Shown piece by piece: positions 9,756 to 29,867 of a stretch of DNA of 32,805 nt (position 1 is the first letter of the stretch; the number at the start of each line of letters is the position of its first letter). The notes below the pieces were generated by a model. That model worked only from the letters and a program-made list of their open reading frames with translations. It was not told where the DNA came from and made no database searches. The position numbers and the translations under genes are program-made. Origin of the DNA: a virus; the IMG/VR virus record IMGVR_UViG_3300021197_000723, positions 1-32,805 of that record; one strand, given 5' to 3'.

Positions 9756-11378
9756 ATGGCAACACAAAAATTTAGTGATTTAACGGCAACAACAACCCCT
9801 AATACAGAATCTGTATTTGCTATCGCTTATTCAGGATCTAACTTTAAATTAACAATTACAGATTTAGCAGCTAACTTACCAGCAGTTACAGCAACCAGTT
9901 TAACCACTTCAGGAACTATAACAGGTGGTGGTGGGTTTATCGGAAACCTAACAGGTAATGTAACAGGAGCTGTAACAGGAAATGCAAGTACGGCAACGGC
10001 TCTAGCTACAGGTCGCACAATAGGAATGACTGGAGATGTTATATGGACTTCAGCATCTTTTGATGGATCAGGCAATGTTACAGGTACAGCAGCGATTGGC
10101 ACAGGGGTTATAGTCAATGCAGATGTTAATACAAGTGCAGCAATAGATGCCACTAAAATACATGATGGCACAATATCAAATACAGAATTTGGATACTTAA
10201 ACAATGTATCAGGTAATATACAAACACAATTAGATGCAAAAGCATCATCAAGTTATGTACCTACTGCAATTACAGTTGCAGATGAATCATCAGACACTAC
10301 TTGTTTTCCCTTGTTTACAACGGCAGCGACTGGGGATTTAGGTCCAAAGACAGCATCAGGATTAACTTTTAACTCAAGCACAGATGTATTATCAGGAACT
10401 TTTGCAGGAAATATTACAGGTAATGTAACAGGTAATACTTCAGGTACATCAGGTTCGACTACAGGAAATGCAGCAACTGCAACAGCATTAGAAACTGCAA
10501 GGAACATTGGTGGCGTATCTTTTGATGGCACAGCGAATATTGATTTGCCTGGTGTAAACTCAGCAGGTAATCAGAATACAAGTGGTTCTGCTGCAAGTTT
10601 ATCTGCAACATTAGCTGTTGCTAGTGGTGGTACAAATATTACATCTTATACTACAGGAGATATAATCTATGCTTCTGCTTCAGGTACACTTGCAAAACTT
10701 GCAATTGGTAGCACAGGACAGGTTTTAACAGTAGATGGTGGGTTGCCAACTTATGCAGCAACAGCTTCTTCGGTTACCTTTCCAACTGTAAGCAGTATAA
10801 GCCCAAGCACAATTACTAATAATGCTACCTCGATAACTTTAACAGGTACAAATTTTGTAAATGGTTGTCATGTAGAAGCAATAAGTTCTACAGGAGCAAT
10901 CTTTACTCCAAACTCAGTTTCATTTACTAATGCAACCACAGTAGTTGCAAACTTTACAATAGGCACAGATGGCACATATTTTATAAGAGTTGAGAACCCT
11001 GATGGTTTAGCAGTTCGTTCAAGTTCAGCATTACTTACAGTATCAGATGCACCTACATGGTCTACATCTGCTGGAAGCATAGGAACAGTAGCAGCAGGAG
11101 CATCAGTATCTTTAGATGTAGATGCTTCATCAGACTCAACAGTAGCGTTTAGTGAAACGACAAGTGTGCTAACTAGTAATACTGACACACCTGCAAGTAC
11201 CATGAATTTAACTTTGAACTCATCGACTGGAGCAATAACAGGAACAGCTCCTAGCCCAACATCTGAAACAACTTATAACTTTACATTAAGAGCAACAGAT
11301 GCAGAAGCTCAAACAGCAGACAGAGCATTTAGTATAACCATATCAGTCGGTATGAATAATTCAGGACAATTTAACTAA
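9756..11378 (+). CDS. Tail fibre with repeats and Ig-like C-terminal domains
   Basis: The N-terminus (ATQKFSDLTATTTPN) looks like a virion-attachment segment. Residues about 63-115 and 218-265 contain two copies of a repeat of the form GNxTGNxTG...GNA-TATAL-R-IG...FDG, known from fibres of marine myo- and podoviruses. Around 341-428 is an IPT/TIG-like Ig domain (SISPSTITNNATSITLTGTN), and residues 430-530 resemble a cadherin/He_PIG domain with GAITGTAPSPTSETTYNFTL. It should take part in host binding. It overlaps the next fibre gene by one base. Confidence 0.85.
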   Translation: MATQKFSDLTATTTPNTESVFAIAYSGSNFKLTITDLAANLPAVTATSLTTSGTITGGGGFIGNLTGNVTGAVTGNASTATALATGRTIGMTGDVIWTSASFDGSGNVTGTAAIGTGVIVNADVNTSAAIDATKIHDGTISNTEFGYLNNVSGNIQTQLDAKASSSYVPTAITVADESSDTTCFPLFTTAATGDLGPKTASGLTFNSSTDVLSGTFAGNITGNVTGNTSGTSGSTTGNAATATALETARNIGGVSFDGTANIDLPGVNSAGNQNTSGSAASLSATLAVASGGTNITSYTTGDIIYASASGTLAKLAIGSTGQVLTVDGGLPTYAATASSVTFPTVSSISPSTITNNATSITLTGTNFVNGCHVEAISSTGAIFTPNSVSFTNATTVVANFTIGTDGTYFIRVENPDGLAVRSSSALLTVSDAPTWSTSAGSIGTVAAGASVSLDVDASSDSTVAFSETTSVLTSNTDTPASTMNLTLNSSTGAITGTAPSPTSETTYNFTLRATDAEAQTADRAFSITISVGMNNSGQFN

Positions 11379-12787
11379 TGGCAAATTCATATTTAACAAG
11401 AGCAGTATCATCATCAGGTAATCAAAAAACTTACACAGTATCAGCATGGTGTAAGATTGGTAGTTTAGTAGGTTCTAAAACAATTTTTAGTAGTGATGTT
11501 GAAGATGATAGTGCTAATTATGGAAGTTTATCTATAGAAGCAGATGGATTGTTAAAATTTATCAATACGACAAGCAGTTCCTTAGTAACTAATTATCAAT
11601 CTACTAGAAAACTATTAGATACTACATCTTGGTATCACATAGTATTGAGAGTAGATACAACACAATCTACTGCTGGAGATAGAATTAGAATGTATGTTAA
11701 TGGAGAACAATTAACATCATGGGCTTATTCAACAACACCAAACCAAAATACAGATACAGGTGTGTTTAAATCAGGTAATGCAACACTTGTTGGTGCAAGA
11801 CATGGCTCATCATCTCAAAATTTCTGGGATGGACACTTAGCTCATGTTCATATAGTTGAGGGACAGTCATATGACCCAACAGTATTTGGAGAAGCTGATA
11901 GTACAACAGGAGAATGGAAACCGATTTTAACTCCCTCTGTTACTTATTCAGCAGATAACTCTGCTTTTTTAAAGTTTGAAAACAGTGGTGCATTAGGTAC
12001 AGACTCATCAGGACAGTCGAATGATTTTACAGTAAATGGAGATTTAAAACAATCTATATCAACACCTAGTAATTTATTTGCAACATATAATTATTTACAC
12101 AATGGCATTGGTCAACAAAATGTTATAAGCAAAGCTGGTACACAGATAGACCATACTAACGATTCTTATAATTGGAGAATAACTGCTGCATCATTAGGTA
12201 TGAATAAAGGGAAGTGGTATTGGGAAACTAAATACTCTACTGAAGCTGGGTATTTAAATGTTGGGTTTGCTAGAAATGGTTGTGATGATTTAACACAGAA
12301 CATGAGAGGAAGTAAACAGCTTGGCGATGATTCTGATGGTAATGGAAACTCATGGGCTTTTAGTGCTGGTAACACATCAGGTAATAACATTGCCAAATTA
12401 AGACACAACAATGCTGATGCTGTTGCAGATATGGGAGTTACCCCAGCAAATGGAGATATTATCCAATGTTGGTTAGATTTAGATAATGGTAAAGCATGGT
12501 GGGGTATTAATGGTACTGTTATGAATAGTGGTAGTGGTGTAGGTGTTCCTAACACAGGAGCATATCCACACTTTACCTTTACTGTAGGAGATGAATTTTA
12601 TATACCAGCAGTATCTTTATTTGGATTAGGTGCACCTCAATGTCAAGTCAACTTTGGCGAGGGAAGATTTGGAACAACAGCAGTATCATCAGGAGTCGCA
12701 GACAATGGTGGCAATGGAACATTTGAATATTCTCCTTTAGCTGGATTTTATTCAGTATGTACAAAGAATATTAAGGATTACGGATAG
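11378..12787 (+). CDS. Fibre protein with LamG-like and SPRY-like domains
   Basis: A 469-residue protein. The N-terminal 170 residues follow the concanavalin A-like/LamG pattern: YTVSAWCKIG, then TTSWYHIVLRVD, RIRMYVNGEQL and FWDGHLAHVHIVEGQ. From about residue 278 a second domain, GKWYWETKY...YLNVGFARN with GDIIQCWLDLDNGKAWWGING, matches SPRY-like folds. Both domains typically bind sugars or proteins at surfaces, so this is a receptor-binding or fibre-tip protein. It lies in a four-gene fibre block. Confidence 0.8.
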   Translation: MANSYLTRAVSSSGNQKTYTVSAWCKIGSLVGSKTIFSSDVEDDSANYGSLSIEADGLLKFINTTSSSLVTNYQSTRKLLDTTSWYHIVLRVDTTQSTAGDRIRMYVNGEQLTSWAYSTTPNQNTDTGVFKSGNATLVGARHGSSSQNFWDGHLAHVHIVEGQSYDPTVFGEADSTTGEWKPILTPSVTYSADNSAFLKFENSGALGTDSSGQSNDFTVNGDLKQSISTPSNLFATYNYLHNGIGQQNVISKAGTQIDHTNDSYNWRITAASLGMNKGKWYWETKYSTEAGYLNVGFARNGCDDLTQNMRGSKQLGDDSDGNGNSWAFSAGNTSGNNIAKLRHNNADAVADMGVTPANGDIIQCWLDLDNGKAWWGINGTVMNSGSGVGVPNTGAYPHFTFTVGDEFYIPAVSLFGLGAPQCQVNFGEGRFGTTAVSSGVADNGGNGTFEYSPLAGFYSVCTKNIKDYG

Positions 12788-23500: not shown

Positions 23501-23607
23501 TTGTTCTCAGAAGAATGGAATCTTTTAGTGTTCCTTTTCAAAAACAAATGGCTGTTGCAGCATCACAAACAGGAATAAACTTAGGGGTTACAAATAACCT
23601 CGAATGA
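20512..23607 (+). CDS. Large internal/ejection protein
   Basis: The largest protein here, 1031 residues. Two hydrophobic Gly/Ala-rich regions, about 101-150 and 925-963, could insert into or cross a membrane. Between them lies a long charged helical region with a lysine-rich stretch near 540-590. Size, composition and place at the end of the virion genes match large internal proteins of podoviruses that help build a DNA conduit into the cell. I see no lytic transglycosylase or peptidase motif. It overlaps the next gene by four bases (ATGA). Confidence 0.72.
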   Translation: MVTQTTPDTPLELARKQREEETKQLMGFGADTASKMDLTEMQEIQNMFNTHKRMGSDLLQSGRITTEQYYENTRKMGIKLGVIGPDEYPNDLPSWLKPTLEIGGAVIGGIIPYVGGPAGVGTKLVAESVGSGLGSASGTALYGLIADLAAPDGMPTQSWSEIGKEAATEGAIVTGLTAGILKSIPAIGSLAKEAGKISPKTTEALNRMGKGARNKIINSPTGQRLKAFGGGYLIKQEKVANELLQELRNNGIEPSYSMLIQNDTVRSLIQALARTPILGTPERESYELIKKDIFKRITEGVTPGSNTTLEQSLGAFSSNFVLESGKYRLKKGVKERSLRDISMLSGFLREQGSRNEGIEATYNLMKSAVNNDKDFAKRLAGNDFAATRNWWLNINNTESIALSRGRSITDILDQKASNTGLYFNLLFSPQRLAEKEVGENVFRNVADAEAILKNANDDFIDIDGMLLPLYKKDSGIEGFIPAQEGKTIFASNNDINSQLILKLNDGEIPLGGTLPTRFGTRSYNEIKQNSALLEEFNTFLKNRKIKQTTSKPTKAKFVKKDGTEMNINKTKAEKYTRENLIKRTSPEGELQKDGAFFDAASILATKKVSGAGQKFLSLSRGEQLLQAQKSLNDDLATIRYYEKSLASDPDLQVIGAAYNSGRANMKDDLRLSSNNEQLELLELADKKFVDNLNLLDRSKSFLQAHRQISTSADAERFLRFDDLFGGKVPRLDVNGERIASDLKAKLIPGKDGKPAYYEVQKNSQGTPIKMTIQERIGGIPGLTKGQMTERMGGSPTDVPDAKLIDDLFRKGTPTQVKEFRELVGKEAFRKMAQDEIDSALNNTLIKYINGSTDDGIGEFWKAFGIGKFKGAAETKARMSAIIDQAGLSFKYSELESFGHMLRYLNGAPQLNQFIQRSMILRFSQGVGPSAVGGLFLGGGGLAAGGVLGSLAGLGGMYFLNKMMASRVYGPEVRGALKNYASAVAAGNKEKAEEAANLVLRRMESFSVPFQKQMAVAASQTGINLGVTNNLE

Positions 23608-23786
23608 AAGTAACTAACGAACAATTAGCTGAAAAAATAGATGCCTTAACCAAAATTGTAGAACGCAACAGCAAAGACATTGTTGATCTTTATAAAATTA
23701 TAAATATAGGTAGAGGTGGCGTAAAAGTGCTGGTTTGGGTTGGAACAATAGTTATAGCAATATTAAGTTGGAGGTACACGCAATGA
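23604..23786 (+). CDS. Small holin-like protein, coiled coil plus TM
   Basis: A 60-residue protein. Residues 1-35 form an amphipathic helix (VTNEQLAEKIDALTKIVERN), and residues 40-56 a single membrane span (VKVLVWVGTIVIAILSW) with a short basic end. It starts in an ATGA overlap with the large ejection gene and overlaps the next gene by four bases. Small single-span proteins with a soluble coil are common near podovirus lysis genes and resemble class-III-like holins or spanin-type partners. The lysis role is inferred, because no endolysin is next to it. Confidence 0.65.
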   Translation: MKVTNEQLAEKIDALTKIVERNSKDIVDLYKIINIGRGGVKVLVWVGTIVIAILSWRYTQ

Positions 23787-24214
23787 TACCAATGGAATTA
23801 TTAAGTATGTTAGCTAGTACAGTTCTAGGCGGCATTATGTCTATCATGGCTCAAAAAGGACAAGCTGAGCAAGAAAAGCAAAAGATGTTGATGCAACGAG
23901 CAGGATTTGCAGCTAAACAAACTGACAAAGCTCGTAATGTTACAGATAGCCACACAAAACACACAAGAAGGGCTATCGCAATTATGTGCGTATTTAGTAT
24001 TATTGTAGTACCAATTGTTGCACCAATATTTACAGATGTTAATGTTGCTTATCAAATAGTTACTGAAGCTAGTAGTGGTTGGTGGATATTTGGCGAAACT
24101 TACGAGACCTCATACTTTCAAGAAGGCAACACAATTTTTATAACTAACCTACAATCACACACAATATTCTCAATCATTGGTCTATATTTTGGTGGATCAC
24201 TAACCAGGAAATAA
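23783..24214 (+). CDS. Membrane protein with two to three hydrophobic spans
   Basis: I start at the ATG of the ATGA overlap (23783), giving 143 residues; a longer TTG-initiated version is unlikely. Hydrophobic spans lie at about 1-23, 64-83 and 127-138, with a charged Q/K/R coil between the first two. The pattern resembles a small membrane protein that I have seen in marine phages near the lysis region, with conserved TRRAIAIMCVFSIIVVPIV and SIIGLYFG. Its job is unknown; a holin or inner-membrane modifier is possible. Confidence 0.65.
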   Translation: MIPMELLSMLASTVLGGIMSIMAQKGQAEQEKQKMLMQRAGFAAKQTDKARNVTDSHTKHTRRAIAIMCVFSIIVVPIVAPIFTDVNVAYQIVTEASSGWWIFGETYETSYFQEGNTIFITNLQSHTIFSIIGLYFGGSLTRK

Positions 24215-24215
24215 A

Positions 24216-24464
24216 ATGGTAGCTAAAAAATATCAAAGCAAAACAGGCGGATTAAACGCTGCTGGAAGAAAATATTTTAAAAACAAAACAGGAGCTAATC
24301 TTAAAAGACCTGTAACAGGTAAAGCACCTAAAGGCTCTAAAGCAGCAGCAAGAAGAAAGAGTTTTTGTGCAAGAATGGGTGGCGTTAAAGGCCCTATGGT
24401 TAAAAACGGAAAACCAACAAGAAAAGCCCTAGCACTTAGGAAATGGAAATGTCGCAAATCATAA
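24216..24464 (+). CDS. DUF6321-like basic protein
   Basis: An 82-residue basic protein with the strong signature SKTGGLNAAGRKYF...KTGANLKRPVT, then AARRKSFCARMGGVKGPM and RKALALRKWKC. I recognise this from marine phage proteins labelled DUF6321. Two cysteines (about 51 and 79) and many Lys/Arg suggest binding to nucleic acid or a structural role; no function is known to me. The preceding AGGA supports the start. The end overlaps the next gene by 16 bases if that gene begins at 24449. Confidence 0.8.
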   Translation: MVAKKYQSKTGGLNAAGRKYFKNKTGANLKRPVTGKAPKGSKAAARRKSFCARMGGVKGPMVKNGKPTRKALALRKWKCRKS

Positions 24465-25051
24465 CTAAGCAATGCTTATGGGTAATGCTAGTTTTGATAT
24501 TAGTCTATGGAATAACTGATGCTATAGGAGATGTTACTTCATCTGGGAGTACCACGAATACCCAGTCGAACAATGCTGGTTCTAATACAGCAATTACAGG
24601 TGGGTATGAATCAAGCACTACATATCAATCAGGTTCTAGTTCTAACAGCACAACGAATAACGAAACCAATAACTCAACTAATACTAAAACTGCTGTAAAC
24701 AGTTCATCAGCCCCTGGCATGAGTGTATATGGTCAAGACAGCTGTGTTATACCTTTAGCTGCTGGAGTAACTGTAATAGGTTTTTCAGGTTCTTTTGGAA
24801 GTTATTACACAGATCCAAATTGCGAGAGAAGAAAATCTGTAGCTGTATTAGCTAAACTTGGCATGAAAGTCGCAGCAATATCTTTGATGTGTCAAGATGA
24901 AAATGTATGGGAAGCTATGATGAACGCAGGTACACCTTGTCCTATTGATGGATTAATTGGTGAGAAAGCTAAAGCTAGATGGATAGAGAAACGCAAACAA
25001 GAATTAACAGGAGCTACTCAAACTAAACCGAGTATGACTTGGAATGATTAG
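24449..25051 (+). CDS. Secreted protein with four-Cys C-terminal domain
   Basis: I choose the ATG at 24449 because AGGA at 24438-24441 is well spaced for it; the ATG two codons earlier is too close. Residues 1-27 form a signal peptide or anchor with a hydrophobic core of the type WVMLVLILVYGI. A 65-residue S/T/N/G-rich linker follows. The compact C-terminal domain has Cys in DSC, DPNC, LMC and GTPC contexts, likely two disulfides, with LGMKVAAISLMCQDENVWEA. Similar proteins occur in marine phages near secreted or lysis genes. Function unknown; it should work in the periplasm or cell surface. Confidence 0.7.
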   Translation: MSQIITKQCLWVMLVLILVYGITDAIGDVTSSGSTTNTQSNNAGSNTAITGGYESSTTYQSGSSSNSTTNNETNNSTNTKTAVNSSSAPGMSVYGQDSCVIPLAAGVTVIGFSGSFGSYYTDPNCERRKSVAVLAKLGMKVAAISLMCQDENVWEAMMNAGTPCPIDGLIGEKAKARWIEKRKQELTGATQTKPSMTWND

Positions 25052-25166
25052 AGCAATATTACTATCTTTAATATTAACTGGTTGTGCTACACACTCAGTT
25101 ACTTTAGGACCAATGACAGTATATGGGAGCAATGAGCAAGAAATATACTTGCCTGAAAGACAATGA
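25044..25166 (+). CDS. 40-residue lipoprotein
   Basis: A very short frame, ATG to TGA, whose first 14 residues are MIRAILLSLILTGC, a hydrophobic signal with the lipobox LTGC. The lipid would attach to Cys14, leaving a 27-residue mature tail. It overlaps the end of the secreted four-Cys gene by 8 bases and the next gene by four (ATGA), so it is translationally coupled to both. The size and lipobox fit outer-membrane lysis proteins of the Rz1 type, but a small assembly lipoprotein for the neighbouring secreted protein is equally possible. Confidence 0.75.
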   Translation: MIRAILLSLILTGCATHSVTLGPMTVYGSNEQEIYLPERQ

Positions 25167-26806
25167 AATATTTAATACCTTTGTTATTTCCTTTATCTTT
25201 GTTTGCTGAAACAACAGGCAATCTTTTAAATCAAACTTATTTTAATGGCAGTACACCTATCAATGGTTGGTCAGGAACTAATGACCATAGTCATGGTGGT
25301 TCAATTATTGCTGGTGTTCATGGTGAGTATTTAGAAAATACTATTATGCTGGGTGACACCCTTAATAAATCTCAAATGAATGGTGGTTGGACATCTACTT
25401 TTGGTAGTGACATATGGCATTGGAACAATTATCAATCTACAGTTAAGATGACACAGGTTATAACAGGAGCAGATGGTACAGTTACAACACAAGTAAGAGA
25501 TGTTGTTAGCTCACCTTGTGGTGGCAATAATTGTGGTAGCTATGTAACTTATACAGACTCTTACACTCAAGGAATTAATAATCAATCTAACTTCAACATC
25601 AAAGTAAGATATGATTTTTCAGATACCAGTCAATCTAGTTCTCACTGGTCACCTGATATAAAAAATCCTACATTAATTATAGAACATAGTCTTTTGTCTG
25701 TTGAACAGCAAAGCACTATATCAGAAATAAATGAAACAATAGATGAAACTATACAGCAACAAATAGAAACAGTAGAGTTTATACCAATAGAAGAATTTAC
25801 TTTTGAGGTATATAAAGAACCTGAGATATTTGTTGAAAAGTTTGAAGAAGTATTTATTGAAGAAATTAAAAAAGAAGAAATTAATATAGGAACAATTAAC
25901 GTGTTCAAAGAAATACCTATGGAGGTAGCATATGAAGAGCCAAAGACCATCGAAGCGTTCACAACAGAAGTCGAAAGTTTTGAAGAAAGAATTGAAACAA
26001 CAGAAAGTTTCAACAACACGCCAACAGGCGAAATCATACAAGAAATCTTTGCAGAAGAACAAACCTCAAACTCTAGCGGAATCGTTGAGCGAGAAGCTCC
26101 ACTTGAAGAAGTTCGAGGAGGAGCTGAAGAAAGAACAAGCGTTGAAGAAACAGCAAGAGGAGGAAATGAATCTGCACCAGGAGAAAACGAAGAAAGAGTT
26201 TCTACAGAGCCTGGAGAAGAAAGCACAGTCGCAGAGTCTACCCCTGAAGCTGTGGAACAAACTGAGAGCAATACTCCTGAGCCTGGAGAAGAAACTACAG
26301 TTGCTTCTGAAGAAGTAAATGAGGTTAACGGAGAAGGAGAAACAGGAGGAAGTGAATCAGGAAATGGAGGAACTGAAACAGTTGCTGAAGGAGAAGAAAC
26401 CCTCGAAGGCCGAGATACTGAGGTGGAAGAAGGCAGGGCTGAAAGAAACACTAGAGCAGATACTCAAACTGTTTCAATAGAATCCATAGAAAAGAAAGTC
26501 AACGAAACCCTCAAACGAGTAGATCAAAGACTAATTGCTACTTCCCTTATTGTTGCAAAAGCTATGGAAAGTCCAATTAAATTAGAACAATACGGAAACA
26601 CAAACAATAACATATTTAATAATCAATTAAATATTGATGGAGGTAGTTATGATGACCAAAGAGAATACCTTGATTTGCGAGATATATATGCTGAGAATCA
26701 AAATGTTTACAACGACTCTGTGGCACAGCATCAAACAAACATTCAACAAAGTGTTGATGAAGTTATAAGAACACAAGAACATCTAAGGAGGATTCGTGGA
26801 TTTTAA
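25163..26806 (+). CDS. Large secreted acidic protein of unknown function
   Basis: A 547-residue protein with a signal peptide (KYLIPLLFPLSLFA, cleavage near residue 15-16). Residues about 16-175 look like a beta-rich domain with a Cys pair near 119 and 124. Residues about 176-440 are acidic low complexity, mainly E, T, S and G. Residues about 440-547 are helical (ESIEKKVNETLKRVDQRL) and may oligomerise. It overlaps the lipoprotein gene by four bases. I know similar secreted proteins near virion genes of marine phages but no assigned function. A periplasmic or surface role after expression is likely. Confidence 0.7.
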   Translation: MKYLIPLLFPLSLFAETTGNLLNQTYFNGSTPINGWSGTNDHSHGGSIIAGVHGEYLENTIMLGDTLNKSQMNGGWTSTFGSDIWHWNNYQSTVKMTQVITGADGTVTTQVRDVVSSPCGGNNCGSYVTYTDSYTQGINNQSNFNIKVRYDFSDTSQSSSHWSPDIKNPTLIIEHSLLSVEQQSTISEINETIDETIQQQIETVEFIPIEEFTFEVYKEPEIFVEKFEEVFIEEIKKEEINIGTINVFKEIPMEVAYEEPKTIEAFTTEVESFEERIETTESFNNTPTGEIIQEIFAEEQTSNSSGIVEREAPLEEVRGGAEERTSVEETARGGNESAPGENEERVSTEPGEESTVAESTPEAVEQTESNTPEPGEETTVASEEVNEVNGEGETGGSESGNGGTETVAEGEETLEGRDTEVEEGRAERNTRADTQTVSIESIEKKVNETLKRVDQRLIATSLIVAKAMESPIKLEQYGNTNNNIFNNQLNIDGGSYDDQREYLDLRDIYAENQNVYNDSVAQHQTNIQQSVDEVIRTQEHLRRIRGF

Positions 26807-27032
26807 AGATATAAAAACATGGGGAGTTTTACTCTCAATCGTAGTTGCTATTGGTGGTGGTTTTTCTAAGTTTGGAGAAATCTCTAATCGCCTAGCTGTG
26901 CTTGAGAAAAAATCAGCTCCTGATATTAAACCTTTGACAGCAGACATTGCCATTAACAAAGCAGAGATAGCAGTATTAAATGCTAAAGTTAATGAGATGA
27001 AAGCTAGATCAGACAACCCATTAGGACAATAA
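26796..27032 (+). CDS. Small TM plus coiled-coil protein (GTG start)
   Basis: A 78-residue protein that starts with GTG, five bases after a perfect AAGGAGG (26785-26791). Residues 8-24 are hydrophobic (TWGVLLSIVVAIGGGF), and the rest is a charged helix (NRLAVLEKK and later AEIAVLNAKVNEMKA). The layout, one N-terminal membrane span and a soluble coil, resembles inner-membrane spanins or small holin-associated proteins. It is separated by one base from terS. Pairing with the 40-residue lipoprotein would make a spanin-like set, but that is speculation. Confidence 0.7.
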   Translation: MDFKDIKTWGVLLSIVVAIGGGFSKFGEISNRLAVLEKKSAPDIKPLTADIAINKAEIAVLNAKVNEMKARSDNPLGQ

Positions 27033-27033
27033 T

Positions 27034-27534
27034 ATGCCAAAGAAAATAGATAAAGAAACAGAGATGAAATTTGTTGAAGCTTTTTGTGAAGGCAAAACAG
27101 CTGGGAACGCAACCCAGTCTGCTTTAGCGGCTGGATATCCTAAAGACAAATCGCCCAGGCAACAAGGCGCTTATCTTAAAAAAAGATACGCAGCCGAGAT
27201 CAGAGAAAAGAATGAAGAAAGAATTACTTCTACATCAGGAATGGCTATTTCAACATTACAAGACTTGTTATTAAATTCTAAACAAGACCTGGTCAAACTT
27301 AACACAGCAAAACTTCTTCTTGAGCTTGGAAATTTCCATTCACAAAACATTAACATCAATGTAGACAAGACACATCAGAAGACAGATGATGAGTTAATTA
27401 TAGAACTACAAGGATTAATGAAAAACATACCTAATCTGCAACCAAAACTCCAGGGATTAGCAGAAATGGAAGAAGAAAAAGAAAAAATCAATTCTAATAA
27501 ACCTAACAAGGTCGAGAAAAGGACTGTAAATTAA
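27034..27534 (+). CDS. terS: Terminase small subunit
   Basis: A 166-residue protein that recognises phage DNA and hands it to TerL. The N-terminal region, with FVEAFCEGKTAGNATQSALA, then AGYPKDKSPRQQGAYLKK, matches the HTH arrangement of small terminases (Terminase_2 type). The middle is a helical oligomerisation region (ISTLQDLLLNS, KLLLEL) and the tail is basic and charged. The gene closes the rightward transcription unit, far from terL at 1054. A terminator-like element follows directly. Confidence 0.85.
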   Translation: MPKKIDKETEMKFVEAFCEGKTAGNATQSALAAGYPKDKSPRQQGAYLKKRYAAEIREKNEERITSTSGMAISTLQDLLLNSKQDLVKLNTAKLLLELGNFHSQNININVDKTHQKTDDELIIELQGLMKNIPNLQPKLQGLAEMEEEKEKINSNKPNKVEKRTVN

Positions 27535-28128: not shown

Positions 28129-28634
28129 GTATCACCTATTTTAGATAAAGCAGATATCTCAATATCTTTAATTATCATTGTTAAATTGTTATATATTTCT
28201 TTGTAATCAGAAAAGTTTTTTATGTTTAACAACTCGTTTCTAATCTCATCTGTAAAATTAAAAATACCATCAGTACAATGCGGACATTCAGTAATACTGT
28301 TTATGGTGGTAATAGTTCCCACTCCATTACAAAAAATACATTTAGGTTCGCAACACTCTATTACCGCCAAGTTTATCAGTTTGTTTAGAAAAGAATGTTC
28401 CAGGACTTTGTGTTCTTTATCAATGTGCCTTAAAGCTATTTCAGAAACAAAACTATTCCTGTATGTGTCTGCTGACACAAACTTCATTAATAAAAAATTA
28501 TATTCTTCTTTGTTCAATTTAGAATAAGAAAGGATTAGGTTAATATCTTCTACTGTAATGGAATCATTACTGCCTGAAGACTTTTCCAGGGATTGTGTTT
28601 TAGGTACTAACATAGTCAGAAGTTCTTTATTCAT
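28125..28634 (-). CDS. Zinc-ribbon protein, possible antitermination-type factor
   Basis: A 169-residue protein with a CIFC...CPHC pair (Cys99, 102, 117, 120) embedded in GVG and TDG turns, a layout like DnaJ-type or phage Q-like zinc ribbons. The N-terminal half is helical and contains ITVEDINLILSYSKLNKEEY. The gene overlaps its neighbours by 8 bases and by ATGA. A role in controlling late transcription is possible because Q-type antiterminators carry similar ribbons, but this is a resemblance, not a firm match. GAGGAG precedes the start. Confidence 0.6.
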   Translation of the reverse strand: MNKELLTMLVPKTQSLEKSSGSNDSITVEDINLILSYSKLNKEEYNFLLMKFVSADTYRNSFVSEIALRHIDKEHKVLEHSFLNKLINLAVIECCEPKCIFCNGVGTITTINSITECPHCTDGIFNFTDEIRNELLNIKNFSDYKEIYNNLTMIIKDIEISALSKIGDT

Positions 28635-28920
28635 CTTTGTGCTCCTCGTAAAATTCTAAAAGCTCATGCTCAGTTCCATATATTTTAGTCCAAGCTTTGC
28701 TGCCCATTCCATGTATACCATACTTGGGGTGGAGATGATGATTATAACAAAGAGGTATTGTTTCAGATCCACGCTGCCCTAACCCAGCCCCTTTCCTAAT
28801 GTGATGAATCTGCGCTGGTGTAATTACACTGATATCAATTTTTCTACACACGACACACCCCCATCTCGCTTTTCTATCCATGTCTTTTTTTTCTTCTTTC
28901 GAAGGTTTTTTCTTAGCCAT
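28627..28920 (-). CDS. HNH nuclease, Ref-like
   Basis: A 97-residue protein. Cys22 and Cys25 (CVVC), then IHHIRKGAGLGQRGSETIPL with His39 and His40, then CYNHH with Cys58, His61 and His62, and YGIHGMG with His70, follow the HNH arrangement of the P1 Ref-like / phage recombination nuclease family. The W...YG..HELLEFYEE tail is typical too. The role would be nicking or cutting DNA during recombination or host takeover. It starts in a TAATG junction. Confidence 0.82.
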   Translation of the reverse strand: MAKKKPSKEEKKDMDRKARWGCVVCRKIDISVITPAQIHHIRKGAGLGQRGSETIPLCYNHHLHPKYGIHGMGSKAWTKIYGTEHELLEFYEEHKDE

Positions 28921-29189
28921 TATAAAAAACTTTTTTGTCTGTCTTCATTTTCCTCTTTACTATATCTAAAGTCTACTAACTTATACTCTTTGTATGGTGG
29001 AAATTTAGACTTGTTTGCTTTGTTTGTGTTCCCATTTAAAGCGTGTTTTAAAGATTCAGGACTAACCTCAAGAACCACTTTGTTTTTGTGAACAATAGCC
29101 AAACCCCCATTATGTATAGCTTTCACGCAATCATAATCTCGGACAGACAACAAGCCATTATAGTTTTTGTTTACTTTAACTTTGTGCAT
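28920..29189 (-). CDS. 89-residue protein of unknown function
   Basis: A basic, mixed alpha/beta protein with VVLEVSPESLKHALNG in the middle and a charged C-terminus. AGGAGG precedes the ATG, so it is probably well translated. It is coupled to the HNH gene by TAATG. No family is recognised. Being inside the leftward early cluster, it may act on the host or on DNA metabolism; nothing more can be said from the sequence. Confidence 0.65.
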   Translation of the reverse strand: MHKVKVNKNYNGLLSVRDYDCVKAIHNGGLAIVHKNKVVLEVSPESLKHALNGNTNKANKSKFPPYKEYKLVDFRYSKEENEDRQKSFL

Positions 29190-29198
29190 ACATTCCTC

Positions 29199-29501
29199 CT
29201 AATCATAATTTATATCTTTCCAGTCTGTTCCTTCTACTTCGTGCATCATAGATAAAGATGAAGTAAGATATCCTTGATGAATGAAATTATCTTCATCTAT
29301 TGTGTCTTGCACACAGAAACCCCCACTTTCAATTTCTTTATATTCACATTGGAGAGGGTCTACTTCTTCATCTACGAGATAATATAAATTACTCATACTT
29401 GTAAATGCAAATATTCCTACTAAGTAATATACTCTTTTCTCCTTGCTCCCATCGAAAAATGATGATCTAACAATGGCTACTTTTAATTGATTTTGCTTCA
29501 C
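29199..29501 (-). CDS. 100-residue protein of unknown function (GTG start)
   Basis: The start codon is GTG, with AGGAGA about six bases upstream. The N-terminal part is basic and beta-rich (LKVAIVRSSFFDGSKEKRVYY), and the rest is acidic (DEEVDPLQCEYKEIESGG). No known domain is visible. It lies nine bases after the preceding gene in the leftward operon. Confidence 0.6.
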   Translation of the reverse strand: MKQNQLKVAIVRSSFFDGSKEKRVYYLVGIFAFTSMSNLYYLVDEEVDPLQCEYKEIESGGFCVQDTIDEDNFIHQGYLTSSLSMMHEVEGTDWKDINYD

Positions 29502-29510
29502 TAGGTTCTC

Positions 29511-29867
29511 CTAAGTTTTGGCATAAACTTTTTTTTCGAAATATTCTTCATTCGTTTGTCTAAATGTTTCAGCTTTCCAAGCCTCAAACTTCATTCTGTA
29601 ATAGTGCATTTCTGTATAAGCTTTATCTTTCTCAAGTTCGTGCATTGCAATAAACTCCATTAGCTCACGCAAGTTTTCATTTGATCCAGCATAAGCTTTA
29701 GCCTGAGTAACAGAAGTATGAGATTCTTCTGACACCAAGTTCTTTGCTTTTTTAAACTCAAGCAATGATTCGTTTTTCCTTAATTCAGCATTATGGTAAG
29801 CGTAGTTCAAGCCATGCTCCCTGTAATTTTGTAAATATTTCTCTGCCATTTCATCATTTAATTTCAT
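29511..29867 (-). CDS. Conserved helical phage protein
   Basis: A 118-residue, mostly helical protein. The order LRKNESLLEFKKAKNLV, then SVTQAKAYAGSN, then YYRMKFEAWKAETFRQT matches a small helical family found beside recombination or replication genes in many phages (YLEEYRK...K..L, EREAYA, A...R.E.WR). Its function is not known to me. It starts in an ATGA overlap with the upstream gene and GAGGA precedes it. Confidence 0.7.
   Translation of the reverse strand: MKLNDEMAEKYLQNYREHGLNYAYHNAELRKNESLLEFKKAKNLVSEESHTSVTQAKAYAGSNENLRELMEFIAMHELEKDKAYTEMHYYRMKFEAWKAETFRQTNEEYFEKKVYAKT

Follow-up and report, generated by a model that had tools for sequence, protein, structure and literature searches.

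What is the role of a run of overlapping genes for secreted and membrane proteins that lies between the virion genes and the terminase small subunit gene (terS) of a tailed phage? Such a cassette is present in the window, i.e. the whole stretch of DNA analysed (32,805 nucleotides), a linear virus record (32.8 kb, 36% GC) that encodes terL, a portal, a scaffold, a capsid and tail proteins, and whose portal is 37-38% identical to the portal of LUZ24-like podoviruses. The contigs of two relatives, G008 (37.3 kb; L093-L094) and G003 (36.4 kb; L097-L098), end in neighbouring genes and, therefore, each covers almost the whole circle. Separately from the cassette, the window encodes lectin-like folds in its tail genes (Laminin_G_3, SPRY and He_PIG domains at 11378-12787 and 9756-11378). 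The cassette and its surroundings comprise:

23604..23786, + strand: 60-aa protein, a coil followed by a C-terminal TM, found only in some relatives
23783..24214, + strand: tm143, a 143-aa membrane protein with homologues in 45 relatives
24216..24464, + strand: DUF6321 basic protein, 82 aa, charge +26 (PF19846, E 1.1e-23)
24443..25051, + strand: cys202, a 202-aa secreted four-cysteine protein with a signal peptide
25044..25166, + strand: lipo40, a 40-aa lipoprotein with the lipobox LTGC and Ala at +2
25163..26806, + strand: cbm547, 547 aa, net charge -67, with a signal peptide
26796..27032, + strand: coil78, 78 aa, GTG start, one TM plus a coil
27034..27534, + strand: terS, a neighbour outside the module (terminase small subunit; phrog_2538 E 4e-7, phrog_51 E 1e-6)

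The sequence-only reading had described five genes strung together with overlapping starts, namely for a DUF6321-like basic protein, a signal-peptide protein with four cysteines, a lipoprotein with the lipobox LTGC, a 547-residue secreted acidic protein and a TM plus coil protein, and had seen no catalytic domain. This description was borne out in full. All five ORFs are present at 24216-27032 on the + strand. Successive ORFs overlap by 22, 8, 4 and 11 bp, and 1 bp separates coil78 from terS. The DUF6321 protein scored 84.1 bits, well above the curated PF19846 cut-off of 28.5 bits; the other four proteins have the features named, and none of the five matched a catalytic family among the Pfam and PHROG profiles.

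The overlap geometry is conserved in relatives: the 8-bp cys202/lipo40 overlap in 39/51, the 4-bp lipo40/cbm547 overlap in 37/51 and the 11-bp cbm547/coil78 overlap in 51/84. Moreover, the median dN/dS over dozens of relatives (tm143 0.10, cys202 0.14, DUF6321 0.14, coil78 0.22, lipo40 0.23 and cbm547 0.51) indicates purifying selection on each ORF. Because the overlap geometry is conserved and the ORFs appear to be under purifying selection, we conclude that all five ORFs, lipo40 included, are real genes.

Searching with cbm547 yielded 80 loci, and an alignment search with cys202 found this gene in at least 600 viral contigs. Gene order in related genomes had been proposed as a check on the cassette, which would be in doubt if the genes were scattered and never co-occurred; instead, the order cys202, cbm547, coil78 on a single strand is kept in 77/78 loci that were long enough (39/39 from the cbm547 query and 38/39 from the cys202 query). 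By contrast, the DUF6321 gene is present in 41 loci and absent from others, e.g. L004 and L028-L032, and is not universal. The DUF6321 protein also matches the C-terminal ~75 residues of several families of large phage proteins (phrog_10346, 450-525 of 525; phrog_3477, 855-928 of 928) and thus occurs both as a separate protein and as the C-terminal tail of a longer one.

The lipoprotein is dispensable. A strict lipobox is present in 50/51 lipo40 homologues, in which the +2 residue is Ala or Thr. By the usual +2 rule, Ala or Thr directs a lipoprotein to the outer membrane (OM), and lipo40 is accordingly expected, on sequence grounds, to be sorted there. lipo40 is gone in six relatives (L015, L025, L035, L050, L054 and L064), in all of which a hybrid signal peptide joins the lipo40 start (MIRxILL) to the last part of the signal peptide of cbm547 in a clean deletion; no substitute lipoprotein was found nearby in these six. 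Moreover, no lipoprotein was seen in most HTVC023P-type loci. The overlap of the lipoprotein gene with both secreted genes had been taken to imply matched amounts; given these losses, a need for such matching in the function is not supported, and we rejected the lipoprotein as the key part. A different lipoprotein of 52-56 aa (LSACSVGKKCTYTQDGTK type) is encoded near cys202 in L124, L125, L126, L127, L136, L138 and L155; the one in L127 occupies exactly the lipo40 position, between cys202 and cbm547, but is unrelated to lipo40 in sequence. In total, we conclude that the invariant part is the triad cys202-cbm547-coil78 rather than the lipoprotein, and that the functional unit also includes tm143.

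The position of tm143 varies: in G010, L005, L023 and L024, tm143 lies 3' of coil78 and not 5' of the DUF6321 gene, and it is because of these loci that we assign it to the unit despite the changed place. Its size and layout are holin-like and resemble those of GTA_holin_3TM (PF11351). However, tm143 itself has no PF11351 match among 14 members, and hhalign gave 12.6% probability over 19 residues; we therefore rejected it as a proven GTA_holin_3TM. By its layout and position, tm143 is likely the holin of the set. The 60-aa coil-TM protein encoded at 23604..23786 has a layout that we take to be XhlA-like, and a homologue lies directly 5' of tm143 in Votkovvirus S28-C10 (L088), L048, L049, L057-L059 and L070; it is a probable accessory of the cassette unit.

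The triad is present in the isolates HTVC023P, HTVC033P, HTVC202P, Baldr, Mosig and Votkovvirus S28-C10, and its carriers are mutually unrelated marine phages, including LUZ24-like phages, the T7-like Votkovvirus, HTVC023P, HTVC033P, HTVC202P and the myovirus Mosig; HTVC027P gave no match. The genes and their order are as in the window in HTVC023P (gp45-46-48), HTVC033P (gp46-45-44), Mosig (00202-00201-00200) and S28-C10 (BAQ94056-94058). In these isolates, the triad proteins are annotated only as hypothetical, 'putative carbohydrate binding domain containing protein' or DUF2730; in the open-access literature, we found neither a description of this module nor a grouping of the isolate triads as one module. 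The triad also occurs in a 328-kb viral contig (L160:7980-11127), hence beyond small phages. In the roseophages CRP-810 and CRP-207, HTVC115P and two spring-water phages, cys202 lies beside different secreted or acidic genes. In L012 (7704-8417) and L013, which are near-identical contigs, a gene that by eye is DNA methyltransferase-like from its sequence lies between cbm547 and coil78.

G010 illustrates how the cassette may move. This 37-kb phage encodes a DNA polymerase of family A and a single-strand-binding protein of the T7 type, and its cassette proteins are 89% (cys202), 89% (tm143), 85% (DUF6321), 60% (coil78) and 53% (cbm547) identical to those of the window. Across the window group, tm143 is 84-94% identical to that of the unrelated G010. 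Outside the cassette, a single G010 ORF matches the window, at 28.6% identity; a comparison with G008 and G003 adds two more small ORFs, one for a coil-TM protein (68%) and another at 47%. From these identities, we conclude that the cassette is a unit transferred between unrelated phages. Homologues of cys202 were also found at 20 loci (L179-L198) in marine MAGs or one single-cell genome labelled as archaea, Flavobacteriaceae, Porticoccaceae, Trichodesmium and others. As these labels span unrelated phyla, we rejected a cellular origin of cys202, and these matches are best read as wrongly binned viral contigs or infected cells.

The three invariant proteins all carry signals for export or membrane insertion. 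An SP-like signal was detected in 127/139 homologues of cys202, in which the signal peptide is followed by a spacer rich in S/T/N (S/T/N/Q) and then by a four-cysteine domain. The cysteines past the signal peptide are at positions 101, 127, 150 and 166, with one more inside the signal peptide, and the four-cysteine pattern is present in 138/139 homologues and invariant from pelagiphages to roseophages. Structure prediction for cys202 gave a pLDDT of 40 and no usable fold. In coil78, a TM (residues 5-29) precedes the coil. The N-terminal flank of the TM is the more positive one in 104/132 homologues and the less positive one in none, and coil78 is thus predicted to be N-in/C-out in the inner membrane with a periplasmic coil. 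An NPL motif lies within the last eight residues in 131/132 homologues, and the coil has a weak match to phrog_739 (E 0.011). Outside the window lineage, 28/55 coil proteins (L082:13459-13818 and 27 others) have clusters of at least four histidines in the periplasmic coil (e.g. HSHDMPKHSHEVGEHQHDEHGH), a composition that suggests metal binding.

cbm547 consists of a signal peptide (residues 1-15; SP-like signal in 115/127 homologues), a CBM-like beta-sandwich head (~28-178), an acidic linker (~180-436; 27% Glu) and a conserved helical tail (~437-547). In the AF2 model (m0dbcaa891f36), the pLDDT of the head is 56-85 by ten-residue block, and confidence in the linker is very low. In a Foldseek search against the PDB, the head matched Fbs1, CBM22, CBM16 and CBM4 with E values from 8.4e-5 at best to 3e-3, a probability of 1.0 and TM-scores by target of 0.34-0.52. 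These proteins (CBM22, CBM16, CBM4 and Fbs1; PDB 4xup, 2zew, 3p6b and 1umh) share the beta-sandwich; the cbm547 head differs from them in being only ~8-11% identical, a comparison at the level of the fold, and in carrying the acidic linker and the helical tail. A sequence search of solved structures with A1 and A2 gave no meaningful match. We conclude that the modelled head has a galactose-binding-like CBM fold, from which carbohydrate binding is predicted.

The head and the tail of cbm547 have different histories. In 21 relatives, the head is less than 35% identical to that of the window while the tail is at least 75% identical. Similarly, in a set of 57 dereplicated triads, cys202, the cbm547 tail and coil78 have distances that correlate with r = 0.74-0.88 whereas head distances correlate only at 0.34-0.45, values that are lowered by saturation of low identities. 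By these sequence comparisons, heads are exchanged while the tail, cys202 and coil78 co-diverge. Separate head families were considered and rejected; BLAST clustering places all but one head in one cluster via intermediates, and the heads are therefore diverged or exchanged versions of one superfamily.

The triad is frequently located beside lysis genes. An M15 peptidase gene lies directly 3' of coil78 in HTVC023P, L099, L104, L118, L134, L148, L154 and L161; an Amidase_2 gene lies 5' of cys202 in HTVC033P, L100, L101, L103, L105, L109, L111 and L142; and a Phage_lysozyme gene lies 5' of the triad in L106, L110 and L169 and 3' of it in L175. In total, 18/20 endolysin matches were within 1 kb of the triad while only 132 of the 564 kb of flank searched are so close; after dereplication at 80% cys202 identity, 7/8 endolysins were within 1 kb (binomial P = 2.4e-4). 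In Mosig, a PF11351 holin above the cut-off lies directly 5' of cys202, and a homologue occupies the same place in L128. In Votkovvirus S28-C10, the set lies between the tail-fibre genes and terL, an interval that in T7 harbours holin and spanin genes. Against a link to lysis, the M15 gene of HTVC202P (29106-29594) and the lysozyme gene of Baldr (28425-28874) are far from the cassette; in CRP-810 and CRP-207, a 'lysozyme' near cys202 is so named by annotation only, which Pfam did not confirm for CRP-810. The sequence-only reading had offered a lysis unit, a surface-modification system or an undescribed secreted complex as explanations; the first and the last survive, as the genes co-travel in unrelated phages and are enriched beside endolysin and holin genes.

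Altogether, the cassette looks like an exchangeable machine that breaks or grips the host envelope. Based on co-inheritance, the export signals, the predicted topology, the predicted head fold and the neighbouring lysis genes, we read it, at little short of an even chance, as a mobile envelope module acting at the lysis (release) step of a tailed phage. In the mechanism that we propose, coil78 would be anchored in the inner membrane, its coil would extend into the periplasm, and its C-terminal NPL end would bind cys202, the helical tail of cbm547 or both. With ~250 residues, the linker could then cross the periplasm and let the head hold on to a glycan of the envelope (peptidoglycan or LPS), and lipo40, where present, would add an OM anchor. 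Once the wall is cut, this bridge might pull on or destabilise the OM in a spanin-like manner. The exchange of heads would be explained if the head is matched to the sugar of the host envelope.

Further observations argue against parts of this reading. Around the module of the window lineage, no canonical lysis set is visible: no endolysin was found with PF08291, PF00959 or PF01510 (15 records) or when those ORFs of G008 and G003 that had no other assignment were scanned with Pfam. coil78 is short for spanning the periplasm alone, and the bridge is our own proposal. Finally, a lectin head that changes fast and is exchanged is a typical trait of receptor-related functions, too. The main rival explanation is a surface lectin or a superinfection-exclusion system, in which cbm547 and cys202 on or under the OM late in infection would mask receptors or block incoming phage DNA, with head exchange tracking receptor diversity. 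The CBM-like head, exchanged in the 21 relatives with a head below 35% and a tail of at least 75% identity, the secretion of the proteins and the OM lipoprotein of the window lineage all fit; the low-complexity part of cys202 even matches a superinfection-exclusion family weakly (E 0.0086), which we regard as an effect of composition. However, the genes share a strand with late genes for the virion, the terminase and lysis and lie amid them, not in early or moron positions, they are enriched beside endolysins, and the lipoprotein, which is usually the effector in exclusion, is dispensable; we consider this explanation unlikely. The late position, the glycan-binding fold and the exchangeable head would equally suit an extracellular aid to release, i.e. 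a lectin complex that coats envelope debris against re-adsorption of progeny or clumps cells for the next infection. But coil78 is membrane-anchored, the ordinary Sec-type signals of cbm547 and cys202 end in the periplasm and no OM export partner was seen, making such an aid distinctly improbable.

A role in the virion or in ejection, e.g. as a tail-tip lectin, is suggested by the location between virion genes and terS and by the frequency of CBM-like folds in tail fibres. A clear match to a described virion component would have counted against the sequence-only reading; no virion family was matched. Moreover, the signal peptides of cys202 (127/139) and cbm547 (115/127) lead out of the cytoplasm where virions assemble, and the set is common to podo-, T7-like and myoviruses with unrelated virions, so that we give this role very little weight. 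Least probable by far is that the cassette belongs to the curli (type VIII secretion, T8SS) modules that pelagiphages are reported to encode. These also move between podo- and myoviruses (PMC9599517), and the cys202 spacer is S/T/N/Q-rich; however, the published set consists of a histidine kinase, CsgF, CsgG, CsgA/B and FecR (PMC9599517), none of which is present here, and the cassette proteins matched no curli family (CsgG, CsgF, curlin repeats) up to E = 1. Without a family match, membership was rejected.

A bolder version goes beyond the lysis-step module that we favour and seems to us rather unlikely: in marine phages, those of SAR11 included, the module would stand in for spanins or act in addition to them, as an envelope-breaking machine of a new class. 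Here, the inner-membrane coil and the four-cysteine periplasmic protein would drive a long acidic tether, the exchangeable lectin head of which would be matched to the host envelope sugar; lysis may depend mostly on the module in the window lineage, which lacks a recognisable endolysin. Phages of SAR11 rank among the most abundant marine viruses. With a conserved triad in at least 600 viral contigs, and with triad-bearing isolates that can be grown (HTVC023P, HTVC033P and Mosig), the opening of the host cell by SAR11 phages becomes testable. Moreover, the triad provides a clear case of one envelope module moving among podo-, T7-like and myoviruses with an exchangeable head of a predicted glycan-binding type.

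Among known systems, the curli modules of pelagiphages and methylophages are similar to the cassette as secreted multi-gene sets exchanged between podo- and myovirus pelagiphages (PMC9599517, PMC9004378), and a lysis role has been proposed for CsgGF (PMC9004378); we found no gene families in common. For GTA_holin_3TM, the correspondence is one of place, as the genuine PF11351 member in Mosig adjoins cys202. No cassette protein has both a lipobox and a C-terminal TM, as in a unimolecular spanin. The two-component spanins (lambda Rz/Rz1 and T7 gp18.5/18.7; defining features from PMC6139136) are different in several respects: the invariant part of the module includes two extra secreted proteins while its lipoprotein is dispensable; the lipo40 and coil78 genes are 1.6 kb apart with cbm547 between them; coil78 has no Cys and mature lipo40 only the lipid Cys, leaving no capacity for an intermolecular disulfide; and the module has no proline-rich region and no sequence homology to spanins except the weak phrog_739 coil match. 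Because the lipo40 and coil78 genes are non-adjacent, a disulfide partner is lacking and the lipoprotein is dispensable, we do not class the module as a spanin. Nevertheless, the module resembles the two-component spanins in having an inner-membrane coiled-coil protein predicted to be N-in/C-out (coil78) with a conserved C-terminal end, a small lipoprotein predicted for the OM in the window lineage though lost in six relatives, overlapping genes and a position beside holin, endolysin and terminase genes.
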